Made by a program: the position numbers and the translations under genes. DNA of 64,000 nt, from the NCBI RefSeq assembly GCF_000189635.1, contig NW_002476536.1, positions 62,001 to 126,000 on the forward strand. The letters are read 5' to 3'. Shown here in pieces: positions 18,626 through 49,198 of the stretch. The first letter of the stretch is position 1; every line of letters begins with the position of its first letter. The notes below the pieces were generated by a model. It saw only the letters and a list, made by a program, of their open reading frames with translations. It was not told the DNA's origin and searched no databases. Source of the stretch: Tetrahymena thermophila SB210 (lineage: Eukaryota > Ciliophora > Oligohymenophorea > Hymenostomatida > Tetrahymenidae).

Positions 18626-21600
18626 TCAACAGAATTCTATTTTAAAGACAACTAATCTTTTTGATTTAAGACACTTGCTTATTACTTTGAATTTTTATGA
18701 TTCACTTATTGAGCTAAAACTTTTAAAATAAATTTGAGTAAATTTTAATTAAATATCAAAATAGAATAAACTTTTAAATTAAAAATAATTTCTTAATTTA
18801 ATAAATATAATAGCATGATTGGAATAAAAAAGATAAAAAATAAATCAAATAAAAGCTATCAAACGAATTCAAAGAGCTTTTTTGTTTTATATTAATTTTT
18901 ATAGTTTAAAATATCACAATCAAAAATTATAAACTGATGCACCGATTGCACCAATTTAATTGTAACTTTTTTAAATATTGAAGAAAAAATATATCATTAA
19001 ATAGTTAATTAGAAGGAAAAAAAAAAGAAAAAATATGAAATAATAATATTAATTAATAAATAATAAAAGCAAAATTTGAAAATAAAACGATGAGTTAAAT
19101 TAACAAAAAAAGAACAAAAAAAAGCAAGCACAATAAAAAGAAAAAAAAAAAAAAATAGTTTTTATAATTAAAAATATCACAATCTAAAATAAATAAACTG
19201 TTTTTACCTAAGATTAAGTGTCAAATTTGAGAGATTAATGTAATTTGCTAAACCAGAACATAAGCCTGATGCACCTTCATCACCAATTTAATTGTCTCTT
19301 TTTAAATATTGAAGAAAAAATATATCATTAAATAGTTAATTAGAAGAAAAAAATGAAGAAAAAATATGAAATAATAAGATTAATTATTTAATAATAAAAG
19401 TAAAAGTTTAAAATAAAATTATATGAGCTAAATTAACAAAGAAAGAAAGAACAAAAAATAAAACGCAAGCACAATAAAAAGAAAAAGAAAAAAAAAAGAT
19501 CTTTATTGTTTTTAATTAGATTTTATAATTAAAAATATCACAATCCAAAACAAATAAACTGTTTTTACCTAAGATCAAGTGTCAAATTTGAGAGATTAAT
19601 GCAATTTGCTAAAGAACAACCTAAGCCGTATGCGCCTTCATCACCAATTTAATTGTTACTTTTTAAATATTGAAGAAAAAATATATCATTAAATAGTTAA
19701 TTAGAAGGAAAAAATGAAGAAAAAATATGAAAAAATAAGATTAATTAATAATAAAAGCAAAAGTTGAAAAATAAAATAATGAGCTAAATTAATAAAGAAA
19801 GAATAAAAAAAAGCAAGCATAATAAAAATAAAAAGAAAAAAGAGCTTTATTGTTTTAAATTAGATTTTATAATTAAAAATATCACAATTCATAACAAATA
19901 AACTGTTTTTACTTAAGATCAAGTGTCAAATTTGTTAGATTAATGCAATTTGTTAAACCAGAACCTAAGCCTGATGCACCCATTGCATCAATTTCATTGT
20001 TACTTTTTAATATTGAAGAAAAAATATATCATAAAAAAAAATAAATAAATAAACACCAATAACCATTTGAAAAAAGTAAAATTAAGAAAAATCAAAAATC
20101 AATAAAAACAAAAAAGAAAAACTATTATAAAATATAATACATTATTATTATTTGTGTATGTAGCCTTGAAAAAAGGCAGTACCCTAGGGTACTATATATA
20201 AATATATCATTAAATTGTTAATTAGAAAGAAAAGAAGAAGAAAAAATATGAAATTATAAGATTAATTAATTAATAATAAAAGCAAAAGTTGAAAATAAAA
20301 TGATGAGCTAAATTAATAAAGAACAAAAAACAAAAAGCAAGCACAATTAAAAGAAAAAGAAAAAAAAAAGAGCTTTATTGTTTTTAATTAGTTTTTATAA
20401 TTAAAAATATCACAATCCAAAACAAATAAACTGTTTTTACCCAAGATCAAGTGTTAAATTTGAGAGATTAATGTAATTTGCTAAAGCATAACCGAAGCCT
20501 GATGCACCTTCATCACCAATTTAATTTCTACTTTTTAAATATTGAAGAAAAAATATATCATTAAATAGTTAATTAGAAGGAAAAAATGAAGAAAAAATAT
20601 GAAATAATAAGATTAATTAATTAATATTAAAAGCAAAAGTTGAAAATAAAATGATGAACTAAATTAACAAAGAAAGAAAGAACAAAAAACAAAAAGCAAG
20701 CACAATAAAAAAAAAGAAATAAGAGCTTTATTGTTTTTAATTAGTTTTTATAATTCAAAATATCACAATCCAAAACAAACAAACTGTTTTTACCCAAGAT
20801 CAAGTGTTAAATTTGAGAGATTAATGCAATTTGCTAAAGCAAAACCGAAGCCAGATGCACCTTCATCACCAATTTAATTGTCACTTTTTAAATATTGATG
20901 AAAAAAAAAATCATTAAATATTTAATTAGAAGGAAAAAATGAAGAAAAAATATGAAATAATAAATAAGATTAATTAATAATAAAAACAAAAATTGAAAAT
21001 AATATGATGAGCTAAATTAACAAAGAAAGAAGGAACAAAAAACAAAAAGCAAGCGCATTAAAAAGAAAAAGAAAAAAAAGAGAGCTTTATTGTTTTTAAT
21101 TAGTTTTTATAATTAAAAATATCACAATCCAAAACAAATAATCTGTTTTTACCAAAGATCAAGTGTTAAATTTGAGAGATTAATACAATTTGCTAAAGCA
21201 GAACCGAAGCCTGATGCTCCTTCATCACCAATTAAATTTCTACTTTTTTAAATATTGAAAAAAAAATATATCATTAAATAGTTAATTAGAAGGAAAAAAT
21301 GAAGAAAGAATATGAAATAATAAGATTAATTAATTAATAATAAAATCAAAAGTTGAAAATAAAATGATGAACTAAATTAATAAAGAACAAAAACAAAAAG
21401 CAAGCACAATAAAAAGAAAAAGAAATAAGAGCTTTATTGTTTTTAATTAGTTTTTATAATTAAAAATATCACAATCCAAAACAAACAAACTGTTTTTACC
21501 CAAGATCAAGTGTTAAATTTGAGAGATTAATGCAATTTGCTAAAGCAGAACCTAAGTCTGATGCACCTTCATCACCAATTAAATTTCTACTTTTTAAATA

Positions 21601-24600
21601 TTGAAGAAAAAATATATCATTAAATAGTTAATTAGAAGGAAAAAATGAAGAAAGAATATGAAATAATAAGATTAAGTAATTAATAATAAAAGCAAAAGTT
21701 GAAAATAAAATGACGAGCTAAATTAATAAAGAACAAAAACAAAAAGCAAGCACAATAAAAAGAAAAAGAAAAAAAAAAGAGCTTTATTGTTTTTAATTAG
21801 TTTTTATAATTAAAAATATCACAATCCAAAACAAATAAACTGTTTTTACCCAAGATCAAGTGTTAAATTTGAGAGATTAATGTAATTTGCTAAAGCAGAA
21901 CCGAAGCCTGATGCACCTTCATCACCAATTTTATTGTAACTTTTTAAATATTGAAGAAAAAATAACTCATTAAATAGTTAATTTGAAGGAAAAAATGAAG
22001 AAAAAATATGAAATAATAAGATTAATTAATTAATTAATATTAAAAGCAAAAGTTGAAAATAAAATGATGAACTAAATTAACAAAGAAAGAAAGAACAAAA
22101 ACAAAAAGCAAGCACAATAAAAAGAAAAAGAAATAAGAGCTTTATTGTTTTTAATTAGTTTTTATAATTAAAAATATCACAATCTAAAATAAATAAACTG
22201 TTTTTACCCAAGATTAAGTGTCAAATTTGAGAGATTAATGCAATTTGCTAAAGAAAAACCTAAGTCTGATGCACTAATTGCACCAATTTAATTCAAACTT
22301 TTTAAATATTGAAGATAAAAAATATATTTAATAGTTAATAAGAGGGAAAAAATGAATAAAAAATAAGAAATAATATGATTAATTAATAATAAAAACAAAA
22401 ATTGAAAATAAAATGATGAGCTAAAATAAAAAAGAAAATACAATAAAAAGCAAGCATTATAAAAAGAAAAAGAAAAAAGAACTTTATTGTTTTTAATTAG
22501 TTTTTATAATTAAAAATATCATAATCCAAAACAAATAAACTGATTTTACCTAAGATCAAGGGTCAAATTTGAGAGATTAATGCAATTTGCTAAACCATAA
22601 CCTAAACCTGATGCACCTTTATCACCAATTTAATTCTTCCTTTTCAAATATAGAAGAAAAAATAACTTATTAAATAGTTAATTTGAAGGAAAAAATGAAG
22701 AAAGAATATGAAATAATAAGATTAATTAATTAATAATAAAAGCAAAAGTTGAAAATAAAATGATGAGCTAAATTAATAAAGAACAAAAACAAAAAGCAAG
22801 CACAATAAAAAGAAAAAGAAATAAGAGCTTTATTGTTTTTAATTAGTTTTTATAATTAAAAATATCACAATCTAAAATAAATAAGCTGTTTTTACCCAAG
22901 ATTAAGTGTCAAATTTGAGAGATTAATGCAATTTGCTAAAGAAAAACCTAAGTCTGATGCACTAATTGCACCAATTTAATTCAAACTTTTTAAATATTGA
23001 AGATAAAAAATATAATTAAACAGTTAATAAGAGGGAAAATATGAAGAAATAATATGATTTAATAAGATTAATTAATATTAAAAATAAAAATTGAAAATAA
23101 AATGATGAGCTAAAATAAAAAAGAAAATACAATAAAAAGCAAGCACAATAAAAAGAAAAAGAAAAAAGAACTTTATTGTTTTTAATTAGTTTTTATAATT
23201 AAAAATATTAAAATTCAAAACAAATAAACTGTTTTTACCTAAGAAAAAGTGTCAAATTTGTGAGATTAATGCAATTTGCTAAAGCAAAACCTAAGCCTGA
23301 TGCACCTTCATCACCAATTTAATTCTTCCTTTTCAAATATTGAAGAAAAAATATATCATTAAATAGTTAATTAGAAGAAAAAAATGAAGAAAAAATAGGA
23401 AAAAATAAAATTAATTATTTAATAATAAAAGCAAAAGTTGAAAATAAAATGATAAGCTAAATTAATAAAGAATAAAAAACAAAAACAAGTACAATAAAAA
23501 GAAAAAGAAATAAGAGCTTTATTGTTTTTAATTAGTTTTTATAATTAAAAATATCAATATCCAAAAAAAATAAACTGTTTTTACTCAAGATTAAGTGTCA
23601 TATTTGAAATATTAATGCAATTTGCTAAAGCAGAACCTAAGTCTAATGCACCCATTGCACCAATTTAATTCTTCCTTTTTAAATATTGAAGAAAAAATAT
23701 ATCATTAAATAGTTAATTAGAAGGAAACAATAATGAAAAAATATGAAATAATAAGATTAATTAATTAATAATAAAAGTAAAAGTTGAAAATAAAATGATG
23801 AGTTAAATAAAATATTAAAGAACAAAAAATAAAAATCAAGCACAATTAAAAGAATAAGAAAAAAAAAAGAGCTTTATTGTTTTTAATTAGTTTTTATAAT
23901 TAAAAATATCACAATCCAAAACAAATAAACTGTTTTTACTCAAGATTAAGTGTCAAATTTGAGAGATTAATGCAATTTGCCAAAGAACAACCTAAGCCTG
24001 ATGCACTCATTCCACCAATTTCATTGTAACTTTTTAAATATTGAAGAAAAATATATCATTAAATAGTTAATAAGAGGGAAAAATATGAAATAATAAGATT
24101 AATTAATAATAAAAATAAAATGATGAGCTAAATTAACAAAGAAAATACAAAAAAAAGCAAGCACAATAAAAAGAAAAGAAAAAAGAACTTTATTGTTTTT
24201 AATTAGTTTTTATAATTAAAAATATCAAAATCAAAAACGAATAAACTGTTTTTACCGAAGATCAAGTGTCAAATTTGTGAGATTAATACAATTTGCTAAA
24301 GCAAAACCTAAGCCTGATGCACCTTCATCACCAATTTTATTGTAACTTTTTAAATATTGAAGAAAAAATATATCATTAAATAGTTAATTAGAAGGAAAAA
24401 ATGAAGAAAAAATATGAAATAATAAGATTAATTAATCAATAATAAAAGTAAAAGTTGAAAATAAAATAATGAGCTAAATTAACAAAGAAAGAAAGAACAA
24501 AAAACAAAAAGCAAAAAGCAAGCACAATAAAAGAAAAAGAAAAAAGAGCTTTATTATTTTTAATTAGTTTTTATAATTAAAAATATCAAAATCCAAAACA

Positions 24601-25044
24601 AATAAACTTTTTTTACTCAATATTAAGTGTCAAATTTGTGAGATTAATGCAATTTGCTAAAGCAGAACCTAAGCCTGACGCACCCATAGCACCAATTTAA
24701 TTGTAACTTTTTAAATATTGAAGAAAAAATAGATCATTAAATTGTTAATTAGAAGGAAAATATGAAGAAAAAATATGAAATAATAATATTAATTAATTAA
24801 TAATTAAAGCAAAAGTTGAAAATAAAATGATGAGCTAAATTAACAAAGAAAGAAAGAAAGAAAGAAAGATAAAAGCAAGTACAATAAAAAGAAAAAAAAA
24901 AATAGTTTTTATAATTAAAAATATCACAATCCAAAACAAATAAACTGTTTTTACCTAAGATCAAGTGTCAAATTTTTGAGATTAATGTAATTTGCTAAAC
25001 CAGAACCTAAACTTGATGCACCTTCATCACCAATTTAATTGTCA
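18626..25044 (-). CDS. LRR protein gene A: array of 90-nt exons, one LRR per exon
   Basis: Read on the minus strand, 17 intact exons of exactly 90 nt start (plus coordinates) at 19208, 19569, 19913, 20441, 20794, 21153, 21500, 21850, 22208, 22550, 22896, 23239, 23585, 23940, 24256, 24617 and 24955. Introns begin GTAAAAACAG, end TTTAAAAAG and are about 255 nt. Every intron is phase 2, so each exon adds one 30-residue LRR of the type GDEGASGLGSALANCINLS followed by NLTLDL. A truncated LRR exon (about 18933-18969) precedes the last exon 18626-18713, which encodes FKVISKCLKSKRLVVFKIEFC and TGA. The true 5' exon with the start codon is not established; a candidate upstream block is at about 25844-25890. 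The repeat resembles ribonuclease-inhibitor-type LRRs, which usually bind proteins. No signal peptide, membrane segment or kinase domain is seen in the exons found. Confidence 0.85.
20033..20201. mobile_element. 169-bp insertion in an LRR intron with 9-bp direct repeats
   Basis: The intron between the LRR exons at 19913 and 20441 is longer than its neighbours by 178 bp. The extra DNA is bracketed by direct copies of ATATATCAT (20024-20032 and 20202-20210), a sequence present once in the sister introns, as expected for a target-site duplication. The insert is A-rich at its left end and carries a perfect palindrome GTACCCTAGGGTAC near its right end. It has no coding capacity, so it could be a SINE-like or other non-autonomous element. 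It is absent from the other arrays in the window. Confidence 0.6.
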
Positions 25045-25145
25045 CTTTTTAAATATTGAAGAAAAAAAATATCATTAAATAGTTAATAAGAGGGAAAAAG
25101 TGAAGAAAAAATATGAAATAATAAGATTAAATATATAATAAAAAA

Positions 25146-25414
25146 TGCCCATGAGCTCAGAAAAAAATAAAAAAATATATTTCATCTCTCGGTCCCAACA
25201 AGTTTGTAAAATTTTTCAAAATTTATTTTTTCAAAAAAATGATATGTTGTTAGAATATACAGTGTATATATAATATTTGAAATTATACATTTTGTGAATT
25301 TAAAGCTTAGTAAAAACTCAAAAATAAAGCTGTTTTAAGCAATTTAGCTTTATTTATTATGTTAATAATATATATTACATTTTGCCTTTTGCAAATTAAA
25401 TAGGCATTTCACTC
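25146..25414. mobile_element. Small TIR element (MITE-like), copy 1, left end decayed
   Basis: The right end GGCATTTCACTC is followed by TA and then rejoins LRR-intron sequence (GTTAATTAGAAGG). The interior (GTAAAATTTTTCAAAATTT, the AAGCTT-containing stretch, and TTTATTATGTTA) matches the copies at 27498 and 39783. The left end is rearranged and the terminal GAGNGAANTTGCC is lost, so its limit is approximate. It sits just upstream of the first LRR exon of gene A. Confidence 0.6.
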
Positions 25415-26285
25415 TAGTTAATTAGAAGGAAAAAATGAAGAAAAAATATGAAATGATAAGATTATGAAAAAAAAAAGAAATCATAATTAAAAGAAAAAGG
25501 AAAATAAATAAAATAAATTAAATTAAAAGAGCTTTAATATATCTTTTAAATTAACTTTTCTAATTAAAAATATTACAATCTAAAACTTATTAACTGCTTT
25601 TATTAAGTGTATGTTTCAATATCAAAAAATGAAGAAAATATATCAAATAATAAAAATGAATAATAAGTAATTTAAAATTCAAATAAAAATTAAGTTAAAA
25701 TGCTAAAAAATTTTAGTTTTAAAAAAATCAATAAATCATGATGATAATTTCTATAACAAAAATTATTTATTTAAAAAAATTTAAAGTTAAATATCTAAAA
25801 AATATTAATAATAATAAAAGTAATGTTAATTAATAAAATATACTTGAGATCAATATGGAGTATCTAATGAGATAAAAGTGAAGAGCTTAAAAACTTTTTT
25901 TATTAATTTATTTAAATTTAAAGGATATTAATAAAAAAATTAATAATTACTTCTTCTAATCTGTTGTAATATTTAATCTATTATAACATTTATTTTTTTT
26001 TTCAAAAATATTGAATAGCAAATTATGAAATTTAATTAATTATAATGGATAAAAAGAACAAATAAAATTTAATAAGTAATTATCAAATAATAAATTATTT
26101 ATTTTGTTTTATGAAGAGATATCACAGAAAAATTAATTTAAAATTCATAATTTAATCTTAATATTTATATTTAAAACATATAAATAAAAATATTGTAGGA
26201 ATTAGAGATGGCAGTTAGTTAGTTAATCATATTTGAAAAAATTCTAGAAATTAATTAATTAATGCTCTGAAATTTAATTATTACT
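25415..26285. other. Inverted-repeat core, left half (upstream of LRR gene A)
   Basis: The first 200 bases are LRR-intron-like DNA without an LRR exon. Then comes the conserved core found again inverted at 26641-27497, and at about 40104-41040 and 49250-49960. On the minus strand a block ending at about 25844 reads SSSLLSHQILHIDL. It stops at a GTATAT donor in phase 2 and resembles the last strand of an LRR, so it may be a 5' coding exon. No in-frame ATG is seen close to it. Promoters for the divergent LRR genes probably lie in the core. Confidence 0.45.
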
Positions 26286-26640
26286 ATTATTATTAATAGT
26301 TAAACACACAAAATAAAGATATGCAAATAATTATTTATTTATTTAATTATATATTTATTTATTTATACTAATTATAGTAATTAATTATTTTATTTTTTAA
26401 ACTTTAATTAAGAATTCAATTTAAAATTTTTGATGTAAAAAAATTATTTATTTATTTTTGATTATAATTCTATTATAAAATATCAAATCAGATTTTTTAT
26501 TTATTTAATAAAAATCTATTTTATCATAAGTGGCATGCAAACCACGAAATTTTTGTATGGCATCTTGATTTAATTAAAGGTATTATAAAAATTCCTAAAA
26601 TTAGAGAACTAAAACAGAAAAATCTACTTATAAATATTAT
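26286..26640. other. Central spacer of the inverted repeat
   Basis: About 355 bp of unique orientation between the two arms. It contains runs of TTTA/ATTA and the phrase AATTCTATTATAAAATATCA, followed by a less AT-rich patch (about 26530-26560). The same sequence, in the same orientation, follows the fourth core copy at about 50045-50230. That suggests the single-core arrangement there is the ancestral one and that the right arm was added by inverted duplication next to this spacer. There is no gene. Confidence 0.55.
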
Positions 26641-27497
26641 TTTTATAATATTTAAGAACATTAACTACTAGAATTTTTTCAAATATGATTAAATAACTGG
26701 CCATCTCTAATTCCTACTGTATTTTTAAGTATATGTTTTAAATACAAATATTAAGTTAAAATAATCAATGTTAAATTAACTTTTCTATGATATTTCTTCA
26801 TATAACCAAATATATAAATAATATTTGATAATTAATTATTATATTTATTTGTTGTTTTTATCCATTTATAATTAATTAAATTTCATAAATTGTGATTCAA
26901 TATTTTTGAAAAAAAATAAATGATATAATAGATTAAATATTACGAAAAATTAGAAGAAGTAATTATTTATTTTTTTATTTATATCCTTCAAATTTATATA
27001 AATTAACAATAAAAGTTTATAAGCTCTTCACTTTTATCTCATTAGGTTCTCCATATTAATCTGAAGTATATTTTATTAATTAATAATATTTTTATTATTA
27101 TTGATATTCTTTATATATTTAACTTTCAATTTATTTAAATAAATAATTTTTGTAATAGAAATTATTATCATTCTTTATTGATTTTTATAAAAATAAAAAT
27201 TTTTTAACTATTTTAACTTAATTTTCATTTCAATTTTTAATTATTTATTATTCATTTTTTTATTATTTGATATATTTTCTTTATTTTCTGCTATTAAAAC
27301 TTACACTTAATAAAAGCAATTTACTAGTTTTGAATTGTAATATTTTTAATTACAAAAGTTAATTTAAAACATTAGAGCTCTTTTAATTTACTTGATTTAT
27401 TTTCCATTTTATTTTTTCATTCTTTGTTAATTTTATTAATTATTAATTAATATTATTATTTCATATTTTTTCTTCATTTTTTCCTTCTAATTAACAA
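26641..27497. other. Inverted-repeat core, right half (upstream of the plus-strand LRR gene)
   Basis: Reverse complement of the left core. The block at about 27019-27065 reads SSSLLSHQVLHINL on the plus strand and ends at a GTATAT donor in phase 2, in the same relative place as on the left. After it comes exon-less LRR-intron-like DNA (about 27300-27490) up to the TIR element. No start codon or promoter motif could be assigned. Confidence 0.45.
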
Positions 27498-27841
27498 GAG
27501 TGAAATGCCTATTTAATTTATAAAAGGCAAAATGTAAAATATCTTAATAAAATAATAAATAAAGCTAAATTAGCTTCAAAAAGCTTTATTTTTTAGTTTT
27601 TAGAAAGCTTTAGTTCAAAAAATGCAAAATTTGAAATAATTTATACCTTATATTTTTATAACATATCATTTTTTTTAAGAAAAATAAATTTTGAAAAATT
27701 TTACAAAAATGGGCTTTTTTCAAAAAATATAAGTTCATTAAATTCCCTGGGATGAAAGAAAATTAGGTAAAAATATTTAAAATTTTAATTTTATAAAATG
27801 TAAAAACGGTACTTTTTGTAAATTTGTATGGCAACTTACTC
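27498..27841. mobile_element. Small TIR element (MITE-like), copy 2
   Basis: It runs from GAGTGAAATGCC to GGCAACTTACTC, imperfect terminal inverted repeats of about 12 bp, and is followed by TA. It interrupts LRR-intron sequence: TTCCTTCTAATTAAC on its left and ATTTAAAGATATATTTTTTC on its right correspond to one continuous stretch in ordinary introns. It is 344 bp and has no coding capacity. It lies directly before the first LRR exon of the plus-strand gene, mirroring copy 1. Confidence 0.7.
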
Positions 27842-27878: not shown

Positions 27879-30800
27879 TGATAATGTAATTGGTGCAATG
27901 GGCGTATCAGGCTTAGGTTCTGCTTTAGCAAATTGCATTAATCTCTCAAATTTGACACTTCACCTTAAGTAAAAACAGTTTATTTGTTTTTGATTGTGAT
28001 ATTTTAATGATAGAAACTAATTTAAAACAATAAAGCTCACTTTTCTTTTTCTTTTTATAGTTCTTGCTTTTTTTGTTCTTTCTTTGTTTATTTAACTCAT
28101 TATTTTATTTTCAACTTTTGCTTTTATTATTAATTAATCTTATTATTTCATATTCTTTCTTCATTTTTTCCTTCTAATTAACTATTTAATGGTATATTTT
28201 TTCTTCAATATTTAAAAAGGTCCAATTAAATTGGTGCAATGGATGCATCAGGCTTATGTTCTGCTTTTAAAAATGTAATTAACCTCTCAAATTTGACACT
28301 TGATCTTTAGTAAAAACAGTTTATTTCTTTTAGATTGTGATATTTTTAATTATAAAAACTAATTTAAAACAATAAACCTCTTTTTTCTTTTTCTTTTTAT
28401 TGAGATATTGAGAATGCTTTTTTTTGATTTCTAATTAACTATTTAATGATATATTTTTTCTTCAATATTTAAAAAGTGGTAATGTAATTGGTGTAATGGG
28501 TGCATCAGGCTTAGGTTCTGGTTTAGCAAATTGTATTAATCTCTCAAATTTGACACTTGATCTTTCGTAAAAACAGTTTATTTGTTTTGGATTGTGATGT
28601 TTTTAATTATTTTTACAATAAAGCTCTTTTTACTTTTTCTTTTTCTTTTTATTATGCTTGCTTTTTTTTGTTCTTTTTTTATTATCTAACTCATTATTTT
28701 ATTTTAAACATTTGCTTTTATTATTAATTAATCTTATTATTTGATTTTCTTTCTTCATTTTTTCCTTCTAATTAACTATTTTATGATATATTTTTCTTTA
28801 ATATTTAAATAGGTGGAATAAAATTTGTGATGAAGGTGCATCAGGCTTAGGTTCTGGTTTAGCAAATTGCATTAATCTCTCAAATTTGGCACTTCATCTT
28901 AAGTAAAAATCGTTTATTTGTTTTGGATTGTGATATTTTTAATTATGAAACTATTTTAAAACAATAAAGTTCTTTTTTCTTTTTGTTTTTATTGTGCTTG
29001 CTTTTTTTTTTGTTTTTTCTTTGTTTATTAAACTCATCATTTTATTTAAAAATTTTTCCTTTATTATTTCATATTTATCTTCATTTTTTTCCTTCTAAAT
29101 AACTATTCAATGAAATATCTTTTCTTCAATATTTAAAAAGTGGCAATTATATTGGTGCAATGGGTGCATCAAAATTATGTTCTTCTTTAGCAAATTGCAT
29201 TAATCTCTCAAATTTGATACTTCACCTTGGGTAAAAACAATTTATTTGTTTTGGATTGTGATATTTTTAATTATAAAAAAACAAATTTAAAACAATTAAG
29301 CTCTTATTTCTTTTTGAGCATACTTTTTTGTGTGTTCTAATTAAATATTTTATGATATATTTTTTCTCAATATTTAAAAAGGTCAAATTATTTTGGTGAT
29401 AAAGGTGCATCAGAATTAGGTTCTGGTTTAGCAGATTGCATTAATATCTCAAATTTGACACTTCACCTTGAGTAAAAATACTTTATTTGTTTTGGATTGT
29501 GATATTTTTAATAATAAAAACTAATTTAAAACAATAAAGCTCTTTTTTCTTTCTTTTTCTTTTTATTGTGTTTGTCTTTTTTTGTTTATTTAACTCATCA
29601 TTTTATTTTAAACTTTTCATTTATTAATTAATCTTATTATTTCATATTTTTTCTTCATTTCTTCGTTCTAATTAACTATTTAATGATATATTTTTTCTTC
29701 AATATGTAAAAAGGTGTAATAAAATTGGTGCAATTGGTGCATCAGGCTTAGGTTCTGGTTTAGCAAATTGCATTAATATCTCAAATTTGACACTTCACCT
29801 TGAGTAAAAACACTTTATTTGTTTTGGATTGTGATATTTTTAATAATAAAAACTAATTTAAAACAATAAAGCTCTTTTTTCTTTTTCTTTTTATTGTGTT
29901 TGTCTTTTTTTGTTTATTTAACTCATCATTTTATTTGAAACTTCTATTTTTATTATTAATTAATCTTATTATTTCATATTTTTCTTCATTTTTTCCTTCT
30001 AATTAACTATTTAATGATATATTTTTTTGTTAATATTTAAAAAGTTACAATTAAATTGGTGATAAAGATGCATCAGGCTTAGGTTCCGCTTTAGCAAATT
30101 GCATTAATCTCTCAAATTTGACACTTCACCTTAAGTAAAAACAGTTTATTTTTTTTTGGATTGTGGTATTTTTAATTATAAAAATTAATTTAAAACAATA
30201 AAGCTCTTTTTTTATTGTGCTTTCTTTTTTTTGTTCTTTTTTTGTTAATTTAACTCATCATTTTATTTTAAACATTTGCTTTTATTATTAATTAATCTTA
30301 TCATTTCATATTCTTTCTTTATTTTTTCCTTCTAATTAACTATTTAATGATATATTTTTCCTTAATTATTTAAAAAGGTGCAATAAAATTGGTGCAAAGG
30401 GTGCATCAAGCTTAGGTTCTGGTTTAGCAAATTGTATTAATCTCTTAAATTTGACACTTCTCCTTGAGTAAAAACAATTTATTTGTTTTGGATTGTGATA
30501 TTTTTAATTATAAAAACTAATTTAAAAAAATAAAGTTCTTTTTTCTTTTTCTTTTTATCGTGCGTGCTTGCTTTTTTTTCTTCTTTCTTTGTTTATAATA
30601 TTTAACTAATCATTTTATTTTAAACTTTTCATTTAATCTTATTATTTAATATTCTTTCTTCATTTTTTCCTTCTAATTAACTATTTAATGATATTTTTTC
30701 TTCAATATTTAAAAAGTGAAAATTAAATTGGTGATAAAGGTGCATCAGGCTTAGGTTCTGGTTTAGCAAATTGCATTAATATCTCAAATTTAACAATTAG

Positions 30801-33800
30801 CCTTTAGTAAAAACAGTTTATTTGTTTTGGATTTTGATATTTTTAATTATTAAAACAAATTTAAAACAAAAAGCTCTTTTTTCTTTTTCTTTTATTTGTG
30901 TTTGCTTTTTTTTGTTTTTTATTTGTTTATTTAACTCATTTTTTTATTTTAAACTTTTCATTTATTATTAATTAATCTTATTATTTCATATTTTCCTTCA
31001 TTTTTTCCTTCTAAATAATAATTTAAAAATATTTTTTCTTCAATATTTAAAAGTGAAAATTAAATTGGTGATAAAGGTTCATCCGATTTAGGTTCTGTTT
31101 TAGCAAATTGCATTAATCTCTCAAATTTGACATTTAACCTTAAGTAAAAACAGTTTATTTGTTTTGGATTGTGATATTTTTAATTTTAAAAACTAATTTA
31201 AAACAATAAACCTATTTTTTCTTTTTCTTTTTATCATGCTTACTTTTTTTTGTTCTTAATTTGTTTATTTAACTCATTATTTTATTTTAAATTTTTGCTT
31301 TTATTATTAATTAATTAATAAATCTTATTATTTCATATTTTTCCTTCATTTTTTCCTTCTAATTAACTATTTAATGATATATTATTTCTTCAAAATTTTA
31401 AAAGTAACAATTAAATTGGTAATAAAGGGGCATCAGGCTTAGGTTCTGGTTTAGCAAATTGCATTAATCTCTCCAATTTGACACTTTGCCTTAAGTAAAA
31501 ACAGTTTATTTGTATTGGATTGTGATGTTTTTAATTATAAAAACAAATTTAAAAGAATAAAGCTCTTTTTTTTTCTATTTATTGTGCTTACTTTTTTTTT
31601 TTCTTTCTTTGATTATTTAACTCATCATTTTATTTTAAACTTTTGCTTTTATTACTAATTAATTAATCTTATTATTTCATATTCTTTCTTTATTTTTTTC
31701 TTCTAATTAACATTTAATGATATATTTTTTTGTTAATATTTAAAAAGGTGCAATAAAATTGGTGCAATGGGCGCATCAAGCTTAGGTTCTGGTTTAACAA
31801 AATGTATTAAGCTCTCAAATTTGACACTTAGCCTTTTGTAAAAACAGTTTATTTGTTTTGGATTGTGATATTTTGAATTATAAAAACTAATTTAAAACAA
31901 TAAAGCTCTTTTTTCTTTTTCTTTTTCTTTTTATTGTGTTTGCTTTTTTTTGCTCTTTCTATGTTTTTTTAACTCATCATTTTATTTTAAACCTTTCATT
32001 TATTATTAATTAATTATATAATTTTATATTCTTTCTTTATTTTTTCTTTCTAATTAACTATTTAATGATATATAATTCTTCGATAATTAAAAAGTCGCAA
32101 TTAAATTGGTGTAAAGGGTGCATTAGGCTTAGGTTCTGGTTTAGCAAATTTAATTAATCTCTCAAATTTGACACTTGATCTTTAGTAAAAACAGTTTATT
32201 TGTTTTGGATTGTGATATTTTTAATAAAAAAACTAATTTAAAACAATAAATCTATTTTTTCTTTTTATTGTGTTTGCTTTTTTTTGTTCTTTCTTTGTTT
32301 ATTTAACTCATCATTTTATTTTAAACTTTTCATTTATTATTAATTGATCTTATTCTTTCTTCTTTTTTTTCCTTCTAATTAACTATTTAATGATATTTTT
32401 TTCTTCCATATTTAAAAAGTGAAAATTAAATTAGTGATGAAGGTGCATCAGGCTTAGTTTCTGCTTTAGCAAACTGTATTAATCTCTCAAATTTGAAACT
32501 TGGCCTTGAGTAAAAACAGTTTATTTGTTTTGGATTGTGATATTTTTAATTATAAAAAACAAATTTAAAACAATAAAGCTCTTTTTTCTTTTTCTTTTTA
32601 TTGTGTTTGTCTTTTTTTGTTCTTTCTTTGCTTATTTAACTCATAATTATATTTTAAACTCTTCATTTATTATTAATTGATCTTATTCTTTCTTCATTTT
32701 TTCCTTCTAATTAACTATTTGATGATATTTTTTTTTGTCAATATTTAAAAAGGTGCAATAAAATTGGTGCAATGGGTGCATCAAGCTTAGTTTCTGGTTT
32801 AACAAATTGTATTAATCTCTCAAATTTGACACTTCTCCTTGGGTAAAAATAGTTTGTTTGTTTTGGATTGTGATATTTTTAATTATAAAAACAAATTTAA
32901 AACAATAAGGCTCTTTTTTCTTTTTCTTTTATTTGTGTTTGCTTTTTTTTGTTCTTTCTTTGTTTATTTAACTCATCATTTTATTTTAAACTTTTCATTT
33001 ATTATTAATTAATCTTATTATTAGATTTTTTCCTTCTAAATAAATATTTAATGAAATATTTTTTCTTCAATATTTAAAAAGTGGTAATTAAATTGGTGAT
33101 GAAGGTTTATCAGGCTTAGGTTCTGCTTTAGAAAATTGCATTAATTTCTCAAATTTGGCACTTCACCTTAAGTAAAAAAAGTTTATTTGTTTTGGATTGG
33201 TATATTTTTACTTATTAAAACTAATTTAAAACAATAAAGCTCTTTTTTCTTTTTCTTTTTATTTTGCTTGCTTTTTTTTGTCCTTTCTTTGTTTATAATA
33301 TTTAACTAATCATTTTATTTTAAATATTTAACTATTTTATTATATATTTTTTCTTCAATATTTAAAAAGTGGCAATTAAATTGGTTCGAGAATAGAATAG
33401 AATAGAAATACTCGCACATAAATATGCACTCAGAATACATCTTAGTTAAATTATATTATAATATTTATATATATATATTTTTTTTTTATTTTTATTTTTT
33501 TTATTTTATTATTATTTATTTCATTTGATTGATATACGCTTTATCTTTAGTAAAAACAGTTTATTTGTATTGGATTGTGATGCTTTTAATTATAAAAAAT
33601 AATTTAAAACAATAAAGCTCTTTTTTCTTTTTCTTTTTATTGTGTTTGACTTTTTTTGTTCTTTCTTTGTTTATTTAACTCATAATTTTATTTTAAACTT
33701 TTGCTTTTATAATAAATACATCTTATTATTTTATATTCTTTCTTTATTTTTTCCTTCTAATTAACTATTTTACGATACATTTTTTCTTCAATATTTTAAA

Positions 33801-37665: not shown

Positions 37666-39745
37666 TCATAATTATTTTTTAAAGACAACTAATCTTTTTG
37701 ATTTAAGACACTTGCTTATTTCTTTGAATTTTTATTATTCTTTCTAAAAGCTAAAAATTTATAATAAATCTGTGTAAATATATTTAAAACTTATTTCTTA
37801 AATTAATAAATAAATAAAAAAAAATAATATTAGTGGAATAAAAAAAGATAAAAAAATAAGTCAAATAAAAGCTATCAAATAAATTCAAAGAGCTTTATTG
37901 TTTTTAATTAATTTTTATAATTAAAAATATCACAATCCAAAACAAATAAACTGTTTTTACCGAAGATCAAGTATCAAATTTGAGAGATTAATGCAATTTG
38001 CTAAACCAGAACCTAAGCCTGATGCACCCATTGCACCAATATTATTCGAACTTTTATAAATATTGAAGAATAATATCATTAAATAGTTAAATAGAAGGAA
38101 AAAATGAAGAAAAAATATGAAATAATAAGATTAATTAATTAATAATAAAAGCAAATTTTGATAATAAAATGATGAGCTAAATTAACAAAGAAAGAAAGAA
38201 CAAAAAAAAGCAAGCACAATAAAAATAAAAAGAGCTTTATTGTTTTTAATTAGTTTTTATAATTAAAAATATCACAATCCAAAACAAATAAACTGTTTTT
38301 ACCGAAGATCAAGTGTCAAATTTGAGAGATTAATGCAATTTGCTAAACCAGAACCTAAGCCTAATGCACCTTCATTACCAATTATATTGTAACTTTTTAA
38401 ATATTGAAGAAAAAATATATTATTAAATAGTAAATTAGAAGGAAAAAATGAAGAAAAAATATGAAACAATAAGATAATTAATTAATAAATAATAAAAGCA
38501 AAATTTGAAAATAAAATGATGAGCTAAATTAACAAAGAAAGAAAGAACAAAAAAAGCAAGCACAATAAAAAGCTTTATTGTTTTAAATTAGTTTTTATAA
38601 TTAAAAATATCACAATCCAAAACAAATAAACTGTTTTTACTGAAGATCAAGTGTCAAATTTGAGAGATTAATGCAATTTGCTAAACCAGTACCTAAGCCT
38701 TATGCACCCATTGCACCAATATTATTCGAACTTTTATAAATATTGAAGAATAATATCATTAAATAGTTAAATAGAAGGAAAAAATGAAGAAAAAATATGA
38801 AATAATAAGATTAATTAATTAATTAATAATAAAAGCAAATTTTGAAATAAAATGATGAGCTAAATTAACAAAGAAAGAAAGAACAAAAAAAGCAAGCACG
38901 ATAAAAAGAAAAAGAAATTAAGAGCTTTATTGTTTTTAATTAGTTTTTATAATTAAAAATATCACAATCCAAAACAAATAAACTGTTTTTACTGAAGATC
39001 AAGTGTCAAATTTGAGAGATTAATGCAATTTGCTAAACTAGAACCTAAGCCTGATGCACCTTCATCACCAATTCTATTGTAACTTTTTAAATATTGAAGA
39101 AAAAATATGAAATAAAAAGATTAATTAATTAATAAATAATAAAAGCTAAATTTGAAAATAAAATGATGAGCTAAATTAACAAAGAAAGAAAGAACAAAAA
39201 AAAGCAAGCACAATAAAAAGAAAAAGAAATAAAGAGCTTTATTGTTTTTAATTAGTTTTTATAATTAAAAATATCACAATCCAAAACAAATAAACTGTTT
39301 TTACTTAAGATAAAGTGTCAAATTTGAGAGATTAATGCAATTTGCTAAACCAGAACCTAAGCCTGATGCACCCATTGCACCAATTTTATTACACCTTTTT
39401 ACATATTGAAGAAAAAATATATCTTTAAATAGTTAATTTGAAGGAAAAAATGAAAAAAAAATATGAAATAAAAAGATTAATTAATTAATAAATAATAAAA
39501 GCAAAATTTGAAAATAAAATGATGAGCTAAATTAACAAAGAAAGAAAAAACAAAAAAAAGCAAGCACAATAAAAAGAAAATAAAGAGCTTTATTGTTTTA
39601 AATTAGTTTTTATAATTAAAAATATCACAATCCAAAACAAATAAACTGTTTTTACTGAAGACTAAGTGTCAAATTTGAGAGATTAATGCAATTTGCTAAA
39701 CCAGAACCTAAGCCTGACGCACCTTCATTACCAATTATATTGTAA
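37666..39745 (-). CDS. LRR protein gene B: short array of six 90-nt exons
   Basis: Minus strand. Six intact 90-nt LRR exons start (plus coordinates) at 37961, 38303, 38641, 38993, 39305 and 39656, with GTAAAAACAG donors, TTTAAAAAG-type acceptors and phase 2 introns. The last exon 37666-37750 uses the first of two possible AG acceptors, which keeps phase. It encodes FKEISKCLKSKRLVVFKKQL and TGA at 37666-37668. The exons and introns are close to one another (alternating types at 37961/38641 and 38303/38993 suggest a two-unit duplication), pointing to recent expansion. A TIR element and a core copy lie immediately upstream, as for gene A. The start codon is not identified. It sits downstream of truncated membrane copy 4, tail to tail. 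Confidence 0.83.
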
Positions 39746-41040: not shown

Positions 41041-41255
41041 TAATAATATCTCTAATTATTCTCTAATCACATTAGTTTTTTTTTGCAAGCGCATGTTATT
41101 TAGGTATATAGATTGCATCCACTAAATAAGTGCATTTAATACCAACTTAAATAACTTTTTAATATATAGAGTACATACAATACTTTATTCATTAGAGGTT
41201 TTAAAATTCAGAGAGTCAATGTAGCTAAGTATTCTAGATCATAAAAATAAAATGA

Positions 41256-42597: not shown

Positions 42598-45500
42598 TCA
42601 ATAAAATAATTTTAAGGCAACTAATCTTTTTGATTTGAGACACTTTACTTCCAAATATTACGATGTATTGAGTTAGTTTTTCCTTTTAATATTAATTTGG
42701 GTAAATAAATAAATTAATAAAAAAAATAAATAGAATAAAATTATTTGATAAAATATTAGATTTTAAATCAATAAAAAAAGCCTAAGTACAATAAAAAATA
42801 AAAAGAAAAATAAATCAAATTAAAAGCTAATAAATAAATAAATAAATTAAAAAAGTTAATTATTTTGTTTTAAATTCAAAAAATATTGCTATCCAAAACA
42901 AATAATCTGTTTTTACACAAGATTAAGTTTCAATTTTAAGAGTTTAGTGCACTTTCCAAAACTAGAAACTAAACCTGATGCGCCTATATCACCAATTTAA
43001 TTTTTACTTTTTAATATTGAAGAAAAAATGAAGAATTAATTAGTTAGTATAAAACATGATAATAAAAGAAATGAATTAATTAAAAATAAAAGCAAAAGTT
43101 TAAAATGAAAAAACGAGATAAATTAAGAAACAAATAAAGAAATAAGTAAAGAAAAAAAACACTAGCAGAATAAAAAAAGAAAAATAAATCAAATAAAATG
43201 CTAGTAAATAAATAATTTGAAAGATTAGTTATATTGTTTTAATAATTTTATATTAAAAAATACGACAATTAAAATCAATGAAACTGTTTTTACTAAAGAT
43301 CAAGTATTAAATTTTAGAGATTAGTGCACTTTCCTAAACCAGAACCTAATCCTAATGCACCTCCATCACCGATTTAATTTTTCCTTTTTAAATATTGAAG
43401 AAAAAATTATTAATTAGTTAGAAGGAAAAAATGAAGAAAAAATATGAAATACTAAGAAATTAACAACAAAAGAAAAAGCTAAAAATGAAAAAATGAGTTA
43501 AATTAACAAATAAAAAATAAATCAAATAAAAAAAAGCAAATAAATAAGTAAATTGAAAGAGTTAGTTAGTTTTATTGCTTTAATATTTTTATACTCAAAA
43601 ATATTACAATTAAAATTAAAGAAGCTGTTTTTACTAAATATCAAGTGTCAAATTTGAAAGATTAATGCACTTTCCTAAATCAGAACCTAGTCCTAATGCA
43701 CCTCCATCACCAATTTTATTGTTCCTTTTTAAATATTTAAGAGAGATTGTTAATTAGTTAGAAGGAGAAAATGAAGAAAAAATATGAAATACTAAGAAAT
43801 TAACAACAAAAGCAAAATTTAAAAATGAAAAAATGAGTTAAATTAACAAATAAAAAATAAATAAACAGTTTTTACAATAGATTAAGTGTCAAATTTGAGA
43901 GATTTTTACAATTTGCTAAACCAGAACCTAAACCTGATGAACCAATAGCACCAATTTAAGTATTGCTTTTTAAATATTGAAGAAAAAATATATAGTTAAA
44001 AGCAAAAGTTGAATATTAGCAAATAAATGAATTAAATAAAAAAACAAAAAAACAAAGAAATAAATAAAAAAATAAAAATAAATCAAATAAAAAGCTAATA
44101 AATAAATAAATAAATTAATTAAAAGAGTTAGCTAGTTATATTGTTTTAAATTCATTTTTATATTCAAAAACATCACAATTCAAAACAAATAAACTGTTTT
44201 TACTTAAGATTAAGAGTCAAATTTGAGAGATTAGTGCACTTTCCTAAACCAGAAGCTAAGCCTAATATACCTTTATCACCAATTTAATTACTACTTTTTA
44301 AATAAAGCAGAAAAAAACATATAATTAATTAGTTATTTAATTATAGAAAAATATATAAGAAATATAAGAAATTAATTAATAATAAAGCAAGAGTTGAAAA
44401 TAAAAAAAATGATTTAAATTAAAAATTAAACAAAGGAATGAATAAATAAATAAATAAATAAATAAAAAAGAAAAACAAGCAGAATAAATAAAAAAAGAAA
44501 AATAAATAAAATAAACTGTTTTTACCTTAGATCAAGTTTCAAATTTGAGAGATGAGCGCACTTACCTAAACCAGAACCTAAGACTGATACACCTTATTTA
44601 TTTTTATTGTTACAAGTTTTTTTGAAAATATCTATGAATTTATCCTTTAAGGTACTTTTTTTATTTTTATTTCCAAAAAAAAACTCTAAGAAAAAAAAAA
44701 AATAATTAAAAAAAATTAATAAAAAAATAAACAATAATTAATAAAACAAATTAAACTTAAATTAAAGATATGTATTTAATTTTAAATAATATTTATGAGT
44801 GTAGAAATACTTGTATTTAGGTGAGTGTATTTTATTGTTATAATCGTCAATTTAATTTTCCCTTTTTAAATATTGAAAAAAATAATTATTGTAAATTAGT
44901 TAAAATGAAGGAAAAATTGAAGAAAAAATATGAAACCATAAGAAATTTATTTATTAATAATAAAAGCAAAAGTTAAAAATGCATAAATATGTTAGATTAA
45001 AAAACAGACAAAGAAATAAATTAATAAATAAATAAAAAAGTAACATAAGCAGGAAGGATAAAAAGAAAAAAAAAATAAATCAAACAAAAAGCAATTAATT
45101 AAATTAAAAGAGTTGATTATATTGTTTTAATTTAATTTTTATCTTCAAAAAAGTCATATTTATAAAATAAATAAACAAATTATTTCTACCTTAGATCAAG
45201 TGTCAGATTTGTAAGATTAGTGCACTCTCCTAAAGCAGTACCAAAGCCTGCACTTATTGCACCAATTTTATTGTTCCTTTTTAAATATTGATGAAAAAAT
45301 ATACAAATAATTAGTTAGAAGGAAAAAATGTAGAAAAATATGAAATAATAAGAAATTAGTTAATATATAATAGTAAAAATTTTAAATGGAAATATGAGTT
45401 CAATTAACAAAGAAATAAATAAATAAATTAAAACAAGCATAATAAATAAAAAGAAAAATAAATCAAATAAAAAGAGTTAATTCTTTTATTTTAAATTCCT

Positions 45501-48500
45501 TTTTATATTCAAATAATATCGTGATTAAGAAACAAATAAATTGTTTTTACTAAAGCTAAAGTGTCAAATTTGAGAGACCAGTGCACTTTCCTAAACCAGA
45601 GACTAAATCTTATGCACCAATTGCGCCAATTTAATTATAACTTTTTAAATATAGAACAAAAAATATGTAGTTAATTAGAAGGAAAAAATGAGGAATAAAT
45701 ATAAAGTTATTAACTAATAATACAAGTAAAAATTGAATATGTAAAAGTAAGAAAAATTAACAAACAAACAAAGAAAGAAATAAAAAAGAAACATCAGAAG
45801 AATAAATAAAAAAAAGTAAATAAATCATATAAAAACTAATAAATAAATTAAAAGAGTTAGTTATAATATTTTAGATTCTTTTTATATTCAAATATATCAA
45901 AATTACAATAAAAATAAACTGTTTTTACCCAAGATTAAGTGTCAAATTTGAGAGATTAGTGCATTTTCCTAAACCAAAACCTAAGCCTGATGCACCAATT
46001 GCACCAATATTATTTAAGCTTTTTAAATATTGTACAAAAAATTATGTTAATTAGTTAGTTAGTAGATGAAAAAAATGAAGAAATAATAAGAAATTAATTA
46101 ATATATAAAAGCAAAAGGTTAGTTTTATTGTTTTAAATTCATATGTGTTTTATGTCTTTTTTAAAAAATATTAAATGTCAAATTTTAGAGATTAGTGCAT
46201 TTTCCTAAATCAGAACCTAAGTTTAATGCACATTAAATAAAAAATAAACACAAANNNNNNNNNNNNNNNNNNNNNNNNNNNNNNNNNNNNNNNNNNNNNN
46301 NNNNNNNNNNNNNNNNNNNNNNNNNNNNNNNNNNNNNNNNNNNNNNNNNNNNNNTAGTTTGAAAAGTTGAAGTAGTGTAAGTAGCTTGATAAGTTGAAAT
46401 AGTTACATTCTTATTTTTATAATTTTTACGTTTTAAAATATAATTTCTTAATTATAATATGATATATAAAAAGAATTAAAATTAATTTTAAGATGTATTC
46501 TGAGTGCATTTATATGTGCGAGTATTTCTATTCTATTCTATCACTAATTTTATTCTAACTTTTTAAATATTGAAGAAAAAAAATAAAGAGTTAAATTGTT
46601 AGTTAGATGGAAAAAATGAATGAAGAAAATAAATGAAATAATAAAAAATTAATTAAGAACAAAAACAAAAGTTAAAAATGAAAAAATCAATTCAATTAAC
46701 AAACAAAAAAAACACAAACAGAATAAAATAAAAAAAAATAAATCAAATAAAAAGCTAATAAGCAAGATTGATATTAAAACTAAAATATCACAATTAAAAA
46801 ACAAATATTTTTTTTTTACTATAGATCAAGTGTCAAGTTTTAGAGATTAATGCACTATCCTAAACCAGAACCTAAAACTGATGCACCTTTATCACTAATT
46901 TTATTCTCACTTTTTAAATATTGAAAAAAAAAAGAGTTAAATTGTTAGTTAGATGGAAAAAATGAAGAAAATAAATGAAATAATAAGAAATTAATTAATA
47001 ACAAAAACAAAAGTTAAACATGAAAAAATCAGTTCAATTAACAAACAGAATAAAATAAAAAATAATAAATCAAATAAAAAGCTAATAAGTAAGATTGATA
47101 TTAAAACTAAAATATCACAATTAAAAAACAAATTATTTTTTTTTACTTTAGATCAAGTGCCAAGTTTTAGAGATTAATGCACAATCCTAAACCAGAACCT
47201 AAATCTGATGCACCAGTTGCACCAATTTAATTTTCACTTTTTCAATATAGAAAAAATATTTTTAGTTAATTAGTTAGATAGAAGAAAAAAATGAAATAAT
47301 AAGAAATTAGTAAATTAATGATAAAAGCAAAAGTTTTAAAAGAAAAAATCAGTCAAATTAACTAACAAAGAGATAAATAAAAAAAACATAAGCAGAATAA
47401 ATAAAGAAGAATAAATCAAATAAAAAGCTAATAAATTAATCAAAAGAGTTAGTTAGTTAGTTATATTGTTTTAAATTCATTTTTATATTCAAAACATCAT
47501 AATTCAAAATAAATAAATAAACTATCTTTACCTAAGATCAAGTTCCAAATTTGAGAGATTACTGCACTTTCCTAAATAAGAACCTAAACTTGATACACCA
47601 AATGAACAAATTTGATTGTCACTTTTTAAATATTGAAGAAAAAATAAATAGTTAATTTGTTAGTTAGAAGGAAAAAATGAAAAAAAAATTGAAATAATAA
47701 GAAATTAATTAATAATAATAAAAACGAAAGTTGAAAATAAAAAAAATTGTTAAATTAACAAAGAAATAAATAAATAAAAAGAAACACAAGCAGCATTAAT
47801 AACAAATGAAAGGAAATCAAATAAAAAGCTCATAAATAAATTAATAGAATTAGTTGTATTGTTTTAAGTTCATTTTATATTAAAAAATATCACAATTATA
47901 ATTTAAATAAACTGTTTTTACCTTAGGGTAAGTCTCAAATTAGAGAGATTAATGCACTTTCCTAAACCAAAACCTAAGTCTACTACACCAATTGAACTAA
48001 TTTAATTATTGCTTTTTAAATATTGAACAAAAAATATATTGTTAATTAGTTAGTTAGAAGAAAAAAACGAACGAAGAATAAAATAATAAGAAATAAATTG
48101 ATTAATTAATAGCAAAAACAAAATTTGAAAATGAAAAAATGAGTTAAATTAACAAATAAACAAACAGATAAATAAAGAAATAATTAATTAAAAAAAGAAA
48201 AATAAATACCAAGCTAGCTAAAAAATCAATTAAAAGAGTTATTTATTTGGTTTGAATGCATTATAATACTAAAAATATCACAATTCTAAACAAATAAAAT
48301 ATTTTTACGATAGAAAAAGTTGCAAATTTGAGAGATTAGTGCACTTTTCTAAAAACAGACCTAAGCCTTTTACTCCTTAATCGCCAATTTTATTGTTCCT
48401 TTTTAAATATTGTAGAATAAATATATATTTAATTAATTAGTTGAAAGGAAAAATGAAGAAAGAATATCAAATAATAAGAAATAAATGCATTAATTAATAA

Positions 48501-49198
48501 TAAAAGCAAAATTTGAATATGAAAAAATTAATTAAATTAACAAAAATACAAAGAAATAAATAAAGAATAAACATAAGTAGAATAAATAAAAATAGAAAAA
48601 TAAATCAAATAAAAAGCTAATAAATAAATAAATAAATTAACAGAGTTAGTTAGTAATATTGTTTTAAATTCATTTTTATATTCAAAAACATCACAATTTA
48701 AAACAAATAAATAAATTATTTTTACTTTAGAACAAGTGCCAATTTTGAGAGATTACTGCAGTTTCCTAATCCTTAACATAAACCTAATACACCTTCATCA
48801 CCAATTTTTTTGTTCCTTATTAAATATTAAAAAAAAGTATATAGTTAAAGTTAGTTAGATGAAAAAAATGATTAATTAATTAATTATATAAGCAAAAGTT
48901 GAAAATGAAAAAATAAATGAGTTAGTTACATTAACAAAATACAAAGAAATAAATAAAAAATAAACACAAGTAAAATAAAAGAATAAACAAATAAATAAAT
49001 AAAATAAAAGGCTAATAAATAAATAAATTAAAAGAGTTAACTATATTGTTTAAACTCATTTTTATATTCAAAAATATCACAATTACAATAAAAATAAACT
49101 GTTTTTACTTTATATTAAGCGTCAAATTTGTGAGATTAGTGCACTTTCCTAAACCAGAACCTAAGCTTGACACACCAATTGCATCAATTTCTTAAAAC
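42598..49198 (-). CDS. LRR protein gene C: older, more diverged array of 90-nt exons
   Basis: Minus strand. Intact LRR exons start (plus coordinates) at 42917, 43294, 43635, 43876, 44204, 45190 (87 nt, one codon lost), 45551, 45929, 46820, 47147, 47532, 47922, 48309, 48726 and 49109. Three more, at about 44526, 46168 and 46541, are broken by insertions or deletions, and a gap (46255-46354) hides part. The repeat type differs from A and B (GLGKCTNLSNLTL rather than ALANCINLSNLTL). Introns are more diverged and contain TAGTTAGTTAG and AATAAATAAAT runs. The last coding block ends VKCLKSKRLVALKLFY, with TGA at 42598-42600; its acceptor is unclear. Skipping a broken exon keeps the frame because all introns are phase 2, so the gene could still work, but it may be a pseudogene. 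No TIR element lies at its 5' side. Confidence 0.7.
44602..44838. other. Insertion splitting an LRR exon of gene C
   Basis: The exon begun at 44526 runs normally to about 44600 and then enters about 240 bp of foreign AT-rich DNA. The missing exon end (TCAATTTAATTTTCC before the CTTTTTAAATATTG acceptor side) resumes near 44848. The extra DNA is bracketed by near-identical phrases TTTTTATTGTTA and TTTTATTGTTA. It contains GTAGAAATACTTG, which loosely resembles the element at 33386 and 46355 in opposite orientation. Its identity is unknown. Confidence 0.45.
46255..46354. other. Assembly gap (100 N) inside LRR gene C
   Basis: A run of exactly 100 N, the conventional gap of unknown size. The DNA on both sides is LRR array, with a broken exon on the left and the AGAAT element on the right. 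The missing piece may contain further LRR exons or the rest of that element. Confidence 0.95.
46355..46540 (-). mobile_element. AGAAT-type element inside an LRR exon of gene C (second copy)
   Basis: Reading minus, an LRR exon begins at the AG acceptor side and breaks into ATAGAATAGAATAGAAATAC, then TCGCACATATAAATGCACTC and AGAATACATC, followed by AT-rich DNA up to the gap. The first 55 bases match the insert at 33386 in LRR gene A-prime, with the same direction and the same exon position. This suggests that one event was inherited through unit duplication rather than two independent insertions. The far end lies in the gap. Confidence 0.6.

Follow-up and report, generated by a model that had tools for sequence, protein, structure and literature searches.

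Non-long-terminal-repeat (non-LTR) retrotransposons of the R1 and Tx1 clades are target-specific elements of the apurinic/apyrimidinic endonuclease (APE) type, with rRNA, snRNA and telomeric repeat targets. The multicopy targets listed by Kojima and Jurka (2015, PMC4640811; see also Kojima and Jurka 2013, PMC3706591) comprise rRNA, spliced leader, tRNA, transposon, microsatellite and telomere sequences, and that list holds no protein-coding exon. In Tetrahymena, the non-LTR retrotransposon Tt.REP has a conserved 54-bp tail that is retained in the macronucleus (MAC) in 169 copies and is tied to arrays of leucine-rich repeat (LRR) genes (Xiong 2019, PMC6564038). The same paper names LRR introns as favoured REP targets, its legends S30 and S31 put the remnants within introns, and the terms “target site” and “insertion site” do not occur in its main text. 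Here we describe a 64,000-nt stretch of Tetrahymena thermophila SB210 (contig NW_002476536.1, C38 below, positions 62,001 to 126,000), referred to below as the window. It very probably holds four protein-coding LRR genes of the published group III whose exons serve a non-LTR retrotransposon, most likely Tt.REP, as homing site.

Group III LRR genes are built of tandem units with exons of exactly 90 bp and phase 2 introns, the unit measuring about 347 bp in T. thermophila and the intron-length peak lying at about 257 nt in this species and about 232 nt in T. malaccensis (Xiong 2019, PMC6564038). Forty-five window exons were used as seeds for a profile, which gave 60 matches in the window, 57 of them full LRR exons and three truncated. 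The intact exons fall into four genes: gene A (minus strand, 17 exons of 90 nt, 19208..25044), gene B (plus strand, 19 exons of 90 nt, 27879..34217), gene C (minus strand, 6 exons of 90 nt, 37961..39745) and gene D (minus strand, 15 exons, 14 of 90 nt and one of 87, 42917..49198). The length is 90 nt in 56 of the 57 full exons, the single exon of 87 nt lying at 45276-45190. Runs of at least three exons of exactly 90 bp are present in these arrays of 17, 19, 6 and 15, and the introns have a median length of 254 nt (230-280 nt in 37 of 53), which matches the published peak of T. thermophila better than that of T. malaccensis and, added to the 90-nt exon, may be set beside the published unit. As far as the published description goes, no anatomical difference separates the window arrays from group III, with which they share the 90-bp exons, phase 2 introns, tandem units and LRR. 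By this anatomy arrays A-D belong to the group III 90-bp-exon class, which is already published; the sequence-only reading, made earlier without database searches, had likewise found a close fit to the class of Xiong 2019.

The frames were read in code 6, in which TGA is the only stop and which is needed for the LRR frames to be open. Joined in phase 2, the exons contain no in-frame TGA in any of the four genes; the other two sense frames contain 8-39 and 6-15. An AG acceptor and a GT donor border every one of the 57 full exons. The longer donor and acceptor given in the sequence-only reading hold as a consensus and are not universal: 39 of the 57 exons have precisely GTAAAAACAG as donor, and 40 have precisely TTTAAAAAG as acceptor. 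All four genes share a final exon, recognized by its acceptor 46 nt before the conserved block AAATCAAAAAGATTAGTTG, in the same frame and ending in TGA. It lies at 18626..18713 in gene A (minus strand; acceptor AAGTTTTAG, frame 1; 18626 is also where the sequence-only reading began its feature), 34468..34552 in gene B (plus strand), 37666..37750 in gene C (minus strand) and 42598..42682 in gene D (minus strand). A Pfam scan of genes B and D matched LRR_6 over 12 repeats of gene B (E 5.8e-17) and 6 repeats of gene D (E 1.7e-06), and the nearest solved-structure chains are LRR proteins of axonemes and similar (best E 2.8e-09).

Because in-frame TGA codons are absent, exon lengths are 90 or 87 nt, the phase is 2, the final exon is common and LRR_6 matches, the reading of arrays A-D as coding LRR genes is supported. 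Tandem Repeats Finder reports arrays with 72-93% matches in the region, in keeping with the nucleotide-level repeat conservation of group III; a whole-frame coding filter picked up just one frame inside the arrays and was uninformative. The tandem period of about 345 bp and the AT-rich composition resemble non-coding satellite DNA. Frame, phase, exon lengths, final exon and LRR_6 speak against satellite DNA, which the frame test refutes and to which we give next to no probability. The central claims of the sequence-only reading, that the satellite-like repeats are LRR genes with 57 intact exons (one of 87 nt), always in phase 2 and with a common final exon, are upheld, and the search against LRR profiles that it proposed gave matches.

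Three LRR exons, one in gene B and two in gene D, are split after nt 19, with a common break position at 33389, 44842 and 46539; these breaks were absent from the sequence-only reading. In gene B the first 19 nt of the exon (33370..33388, plus strand, TGGCAATTAAATTGGTTCG) are followed by a REP-like tail at 33389..33444 on the minus strand, adjoining exon nt 19 (junction row L003, with an exact 37-nt match at C38:95408-95444). In gene D, the sequence places the first 19 nt of one broken exon at 46540..46558 (minus strand), adjoining a REP-like tail at 46489..46541 on the plus strand (C38:108489-108541, row L058), the last 1-2 bases of which are assignable to either tail or exon. A profile match at 46159..46231 (minus strand) represents the 3′ part of this exon, and a 100-N gap (46255-46354) lies between. 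In these two split exons the tail is the same, about 54 nt long (AGAATAGAATA...GAAATACTCGCACAT...) and antisense to the gene. The other broken exon of gene D (44526..44861, minus strand, 336 nt) consists of nt 1-19 at 44861-44843, an insert of about 246 nt (44597-44842) and the rest of the exon. On either side of every break the exons share a single open frame. Read straight through, the broken exon of gene B runs into a TGA; that at 44526-44861 has a length that is a multiple of 3 and contains no in-frame TGA.

An old REP copy was considered for the insert at 44597-44842. Although it occupies the same nucleotide of the exon, its sequence differs from the tail, and a 31-nt piece of it occurs once in the genome at up to 3 mismatches, with no second copy, so that this assignment was not adopted.

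The position of the tail relative to the LRR exon was examined across the genome (101,022,631 bases in 445 contigs), probably that of the somatic nucleus (MAC). A 27-place tail core at up to 3 mismatches has 127 copies (64 forward and 63 reverse), the reversed-pattern control has none, and a 33-place version has 64 forward and 60 reverse copies. There are 111 tail contexts, three of which are a truncated repeat of a copy already present, leaving 108 distinct contexts with at least 120 nt of flank; the match rule for the 108 is slightly looser than that for the 127, of which they are not a strict subset. Junctions were scored with a 30-nt profile taken from the window exons alone (12 intron and 18 exon positions) at a threshold of 12. 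At least this score is reached by 104 of the 108 tail copies, the tail starting at LRR exon nt 17-19 in antisense orientation and its spacing to the exon varying only with the number of tail repeats. As a control, 377 stretches of 130 nt were drawn at random from these loci without matching for orientation; 24 reach the score and 6 also show the spacing. Of the remaining four tail copies, L115 occupies this position on visual inspection, L016 is similar to the target, and L088 and L124 are without clear resemblance. An insertion site fixed at one nucleotide and one orientation within the LRR exon is thus strongly supported by these junction sequences.

If REP remnants instead sat in LRR introns, as the legends of Xiong 2019 have it, the adjoining exon pieces would be incidental. 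A broken exon together with its two introns would indeed look like one long intron, the intervals between intact exons being 630, 801 and 896 nt. Introns make up about three quarters of the unit, though, and still all but four of the 108 junctions lie at exon nt 17-19. For the tail end an intron position is already contradicted; the duplication of exon nt 7/8-19 described below also opposes it, and we regard it as very improbable.

The copies differ from one another in several respects. Each tail carries one to four GAATA-type repeats, the number differing between copies, and the far side of the tail differs as well. Exon nt 1-19 differ in 95 of the 104 junction copies, and the upstream introns of these copies have a median ungapped identity of 0.58; therefore most of the targets were different exons. 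Upstream introns are more than 0.95 identical in 2.7% of junction pairs, so that some tail copies are duplicates, though most are not.

A duplicated target was looked for on the downstream side of the tail, where many tail loci offer only about 300 nt. An exon-like match lies within 1.5 kb of the tail in 61 of the 111 contexts; 34 of these matches begin within the exon (one copy counted four times), 20 are whole exons and 7 begin later. Among 23 scorable copies, 13 have at least 12 contiguous nucleotides ending at exon nt 19 on both sides of the tail. The edge of the duplication is visible in the identity between the two sides, which is 20/23 at nt 8, 13/23 at nt 7 and 7/23 at nt 6. Over nt 8-19 self identity is 227/276; when partners were shuffled 10,000 times, it averaged 194.2 and never exceeded 217. 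Copy-specific variants occur on both sides, for example AACATCGGTGAT in L122, TAAATTGGTCC in L132, TTAAATTGGTGAC in L053 and TAAATTAATGAT in L062. Private variants that are themselves duplicated therefore suggest separate insertions into exons that had already diverged.

These duplications bear on two other accounts of the fixed site. Unequal crossing over might have multiplied one ancestral insertion together with the LRR unit around it, the fixed site being a matter of descent. LRR units do duplicate, the near-identical upstream introns mentioned above are what such copying would leave, and several tails are alike after CATCTTA. Against descent stand the differing exon starts and the varying number of tail repeats, and for the 13 of 23 copies with target variants of their own on both sides it is wrong; we consider it very improbable as a general account. 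Alternatively, the element may carry LRR sequence along by 3′ transduction or co-retrotransposition, a proposal raised in Xiong 2019, where transcript fragments spanning LRR repeats and REP are reported from developing MACs deficient in RNA interference (PMC6564038). Carried sequence should be alike from copy to copy, whereas the exon starts and upstream introns differ and the exon piece is duplicated on the far side. The flank evidence still allows rare events of this kind, and as an explanation of the junctions at large transduction is even less probable than common descent.

Separate insertion at a fixed exon nucleotide resembles the behavior of R1 and Tx1 elements: there is one insertion nucleotide, one orientation, a short target duplication, a multicopy and conserved target, and a 3′ tail with variable short repeats. 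The target itself, a protein-coding exon, is unlike those listed for target-specific elements (PMC4640811). The target site extends over LRR exon nt 5-17, where the exon varies least and where the Asn-x-Ile-Gly core is encoded. The junction facts fit target-primed reverse transcription. In such a process an endonuclease would nick the coding strand of the LRR gene behind exon nt 19, within AATTAAATTGGTGAT^RAAGG (encoding N-x-I-G-D). The 3′ end set free there would serve as primer for reverse transcription of the element RNA, beginning at its (UAUUC)n tail. The element would then lie antisense to the LRR gene, with cDNA beginning AGAATAGAATA. A second nick on the opposite strand, 12-13 nt away, would produce the duplication of exon nt 7/8-19; this order of nicking is what we infer from the junctions. 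Somatic nuclei would lose most of the element as an internal eliminated sequence (IES) and retain the tail. Because the exon is 90 nt long with phase 2 on both sides, in-frame skipping is possible, and skipping a hit exon would cost one LRR while keeping the frame.

The tail-bearing element is most likely Tt.REP, an identification that is likely but unproven. The tail described here is like that of Tt.REP in being about 54 nt long and LRR-tied, with 127 copies at up to 3 mismatches against the 169 published, and the two are matched by description only (Xiong 2019, PMC6564038). It is unlike the published account in lying at one LRR exon nucleotide and not in LRR introns.

Several observations weigh against homing by Tt.REP. 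The identity of the element depends on that description, and none of the tail copies seen was attached to a reverse transcriptase. The retrotransposon body is expected to be missing from somatic DNA. The sole RVT_1 match in the genome, L139 (G000:C134:182753-183433 plus flank), belongs to an open APE-RT frame of 917 amino acids (reverse transcriptase E 1.4e-29) with an endonuclease match below the cut-off (23.8 versus 24.5 bits), and no tail and no LRR flank were found in the 3.7 kb around it when it was considered as the REP body. The frame after L139 has a stretch that we take to be GRF-zinc-finger-like, and L139 is possibly a retained or adopted retrotransposon gene. Three of the 108 junctions (L088, L016 and L124) are not placed on an LRR exon, and the near-identical intron pairs count here as well. 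Ten of the 23 scorable copies have no 12-nt duplication; these are decayed (L046 at 733, L030), of mixed exon types (L027 at 638, L069) or without a clear match, and halves of differing exon types look as if they came from recombination or deletion. Finally, the broken exon of gene D at 44526-44861 stays open, so that read-through is possible instead of skipping.

Exon and intron divergence was compared in 46 of the 57 units, those with a 90-nt exon and an intron of 200-330 nt. The p-distance (proportion of differing sites) of exons exceeds that of introns in every array:.153 versus.082 in A,.169 versus.105 in B,.116 versus.040 in C and.259 versus.200 in D. At aligned sites over the four arrays the exon value is lower than the intron value in only 23 of 275 unit pairs, although gaps in the AT-rich introns may conceal part of the intron change. 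The ratio of nonsynonymous to synonymous differences (pN/pS) among repeats within a gene is 1.11 in A, 1.02 in B, 1.39 in C and 0.98 in D. Purifying Ka/Ks has been reported for most group III LRR genes (Xiong 2019, PMC6564038), a measure different from our comparison of repeats inside one gene. The comparison had been proposed by the sequence-only reading, and it came out contrary to that reading's description of conserved exons amid variable introns. Intron lengths do vary, but for substitutions the description is ruled out by the higher exon distance in all four arrays. The same reading had named two signs that would speak against genes, exons diverging as fast as introns and random frame breaks; exons diverge at least as fast, and none of the 57 has a frame break.

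Exon variation is uneven, with a few variable codons and nearly constant structural N, L, I and G codons. At codon positions 1 and 2 of the predicted concave-face codons (26, 28, the junction codon, 1 and 3), diversity is 4.4 (A), 4.7 (B) and 2.7 (D) times that of the introns, gene C being too small for this test. Random sets of five codons equal this diversity in 13 (A), 1 (B) and 0 (D) of 2000 draws. The other codons reach 1.0-1.4 times the intron value with codons 6-8 included and 0.75-1.07 times with them excluded. Hypervariable residues on the concave beta-sheet are known from LRR recognition receptors such as plant nucleotide-binding-site LRR (NBS-LRR) proteins and lamprey variable lymphocyte receptors (VLR). 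The window genes are like them in concentrating variation on predicted concave-face codons and unlike them in that the variation was measured among repeats of one gene rather than among orthologues. Diversifying selection at these codons is only suggested, because the codon set, although taken from the LRR pattern, was chosen after the variability profile was known, because codons 6-8, outside the set, are hypervariable too, and because third positions exceed introns (.142,.160 and.244 versus.081,.104 and.199 in A, B and D). Exons that vary more than introns, on the predicted ligand face, go beyond the published description of group III as far as it was available (Xiong 2019).

The same divergence figures bear on whether the arrays are decaying pseudogenes. 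A pN/pS near 1, exons more divergent than introns, three exons broken by inserts and one by a deletion, and start exons that are candidates only would all be expected of decay, and species-specific genes are weakly expressed in axenic culture (Xiong 2019, PMC6564038). Decay would not be expected to keep the frame in all 57 full exons and four final exons, nor to confine variation to a few codons while the structural ones hardly change. We consider pseudogenes unlikely, though the most credible of the alternatives weighed here.

The deletion affects a truncated exon of gene A (18934..18973, minus strand, profile positions 3-42), which has lost its 3′ part and donor and is fused to intron sequence. 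A candidate first coding exon of gene B, unproven and with other candidates beside it, lies at 27798..27817 (plus strand; ATG, phase 2, donor GTAAATTTG, followed by a 61-nt intron), and gene C has a similar candidate at 39829-39807; the same rule, applied to genes A, B and C, found no start exon for gene A. The 5′ region of gene B recurs at gene C (84.4% over 1897) and partly at gene D. The 5′ regions of A and B form a head-to-head inverted repeat (25203..27707) with arms at 25203-26255 and 26660-27707 that are 86.4% identical over 1067 columns; this one long palindromic region, with arms of about 1 kb, could serve both genes. In gene C (38050-39745) successive units alternate in exon type and in intron end (acceptors TTATAAAAG and TTTAAAAAG), which hints at a higher-order repeat made of two units. 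An insert of about 160 nt in a gene A intron (20040-20200) has AATATATCAT on both sides and contains CAGTACCCTAGGGTACTAT; it has the look of an independent mobile insertion that duplicated its own target.

Around the LRR genes, at 4092-10299, 11915-18153, 35678-37325, 50570-57089 and 58420-64000 of the window, lie diverged copies (71-82%) of a different large gene family. As read from their translations, these copies contain membrane-spanning stretches and a PAS-like stretch. Pfam assigned no family to any of 10 flanking frames, and a solved-structure search with one flanking frame gave no match.

The LRR arrays themselves are already published, and what is new is the exon-nucleotide insertion site of the tail. 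An LRR-exon insertion site was not found in the literature searched, including Hamilton 2016 (PMC5182062), in the parts available; a statement in Fillingham 2004 is possible. The exact nucleotide recasts the association of REP with LRR genes as homing on a coding motif, in place of intron insertion with possible retrotransduction, and a protein-coding exon would join the multicopy target classes listed so far (PMC4640811). The exon-skipping view offers a reason why insertions are tolerated. We lean slightly towards a broader interpretation, in which this would be the first known target-specific retrotransposon homing on a protein-coding exon, using the Asn-x-Ile-Gly codons that the LRR fold holds fixed, with exons in phase 2 on both sides and somatic elimination making hits nearly harmless. 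The link between REP and LRR genes would then be that of a parasite homing as R1 and R2 do in rDNA, and its nicks may contribute to the unequal exchange by which the arrays expand.

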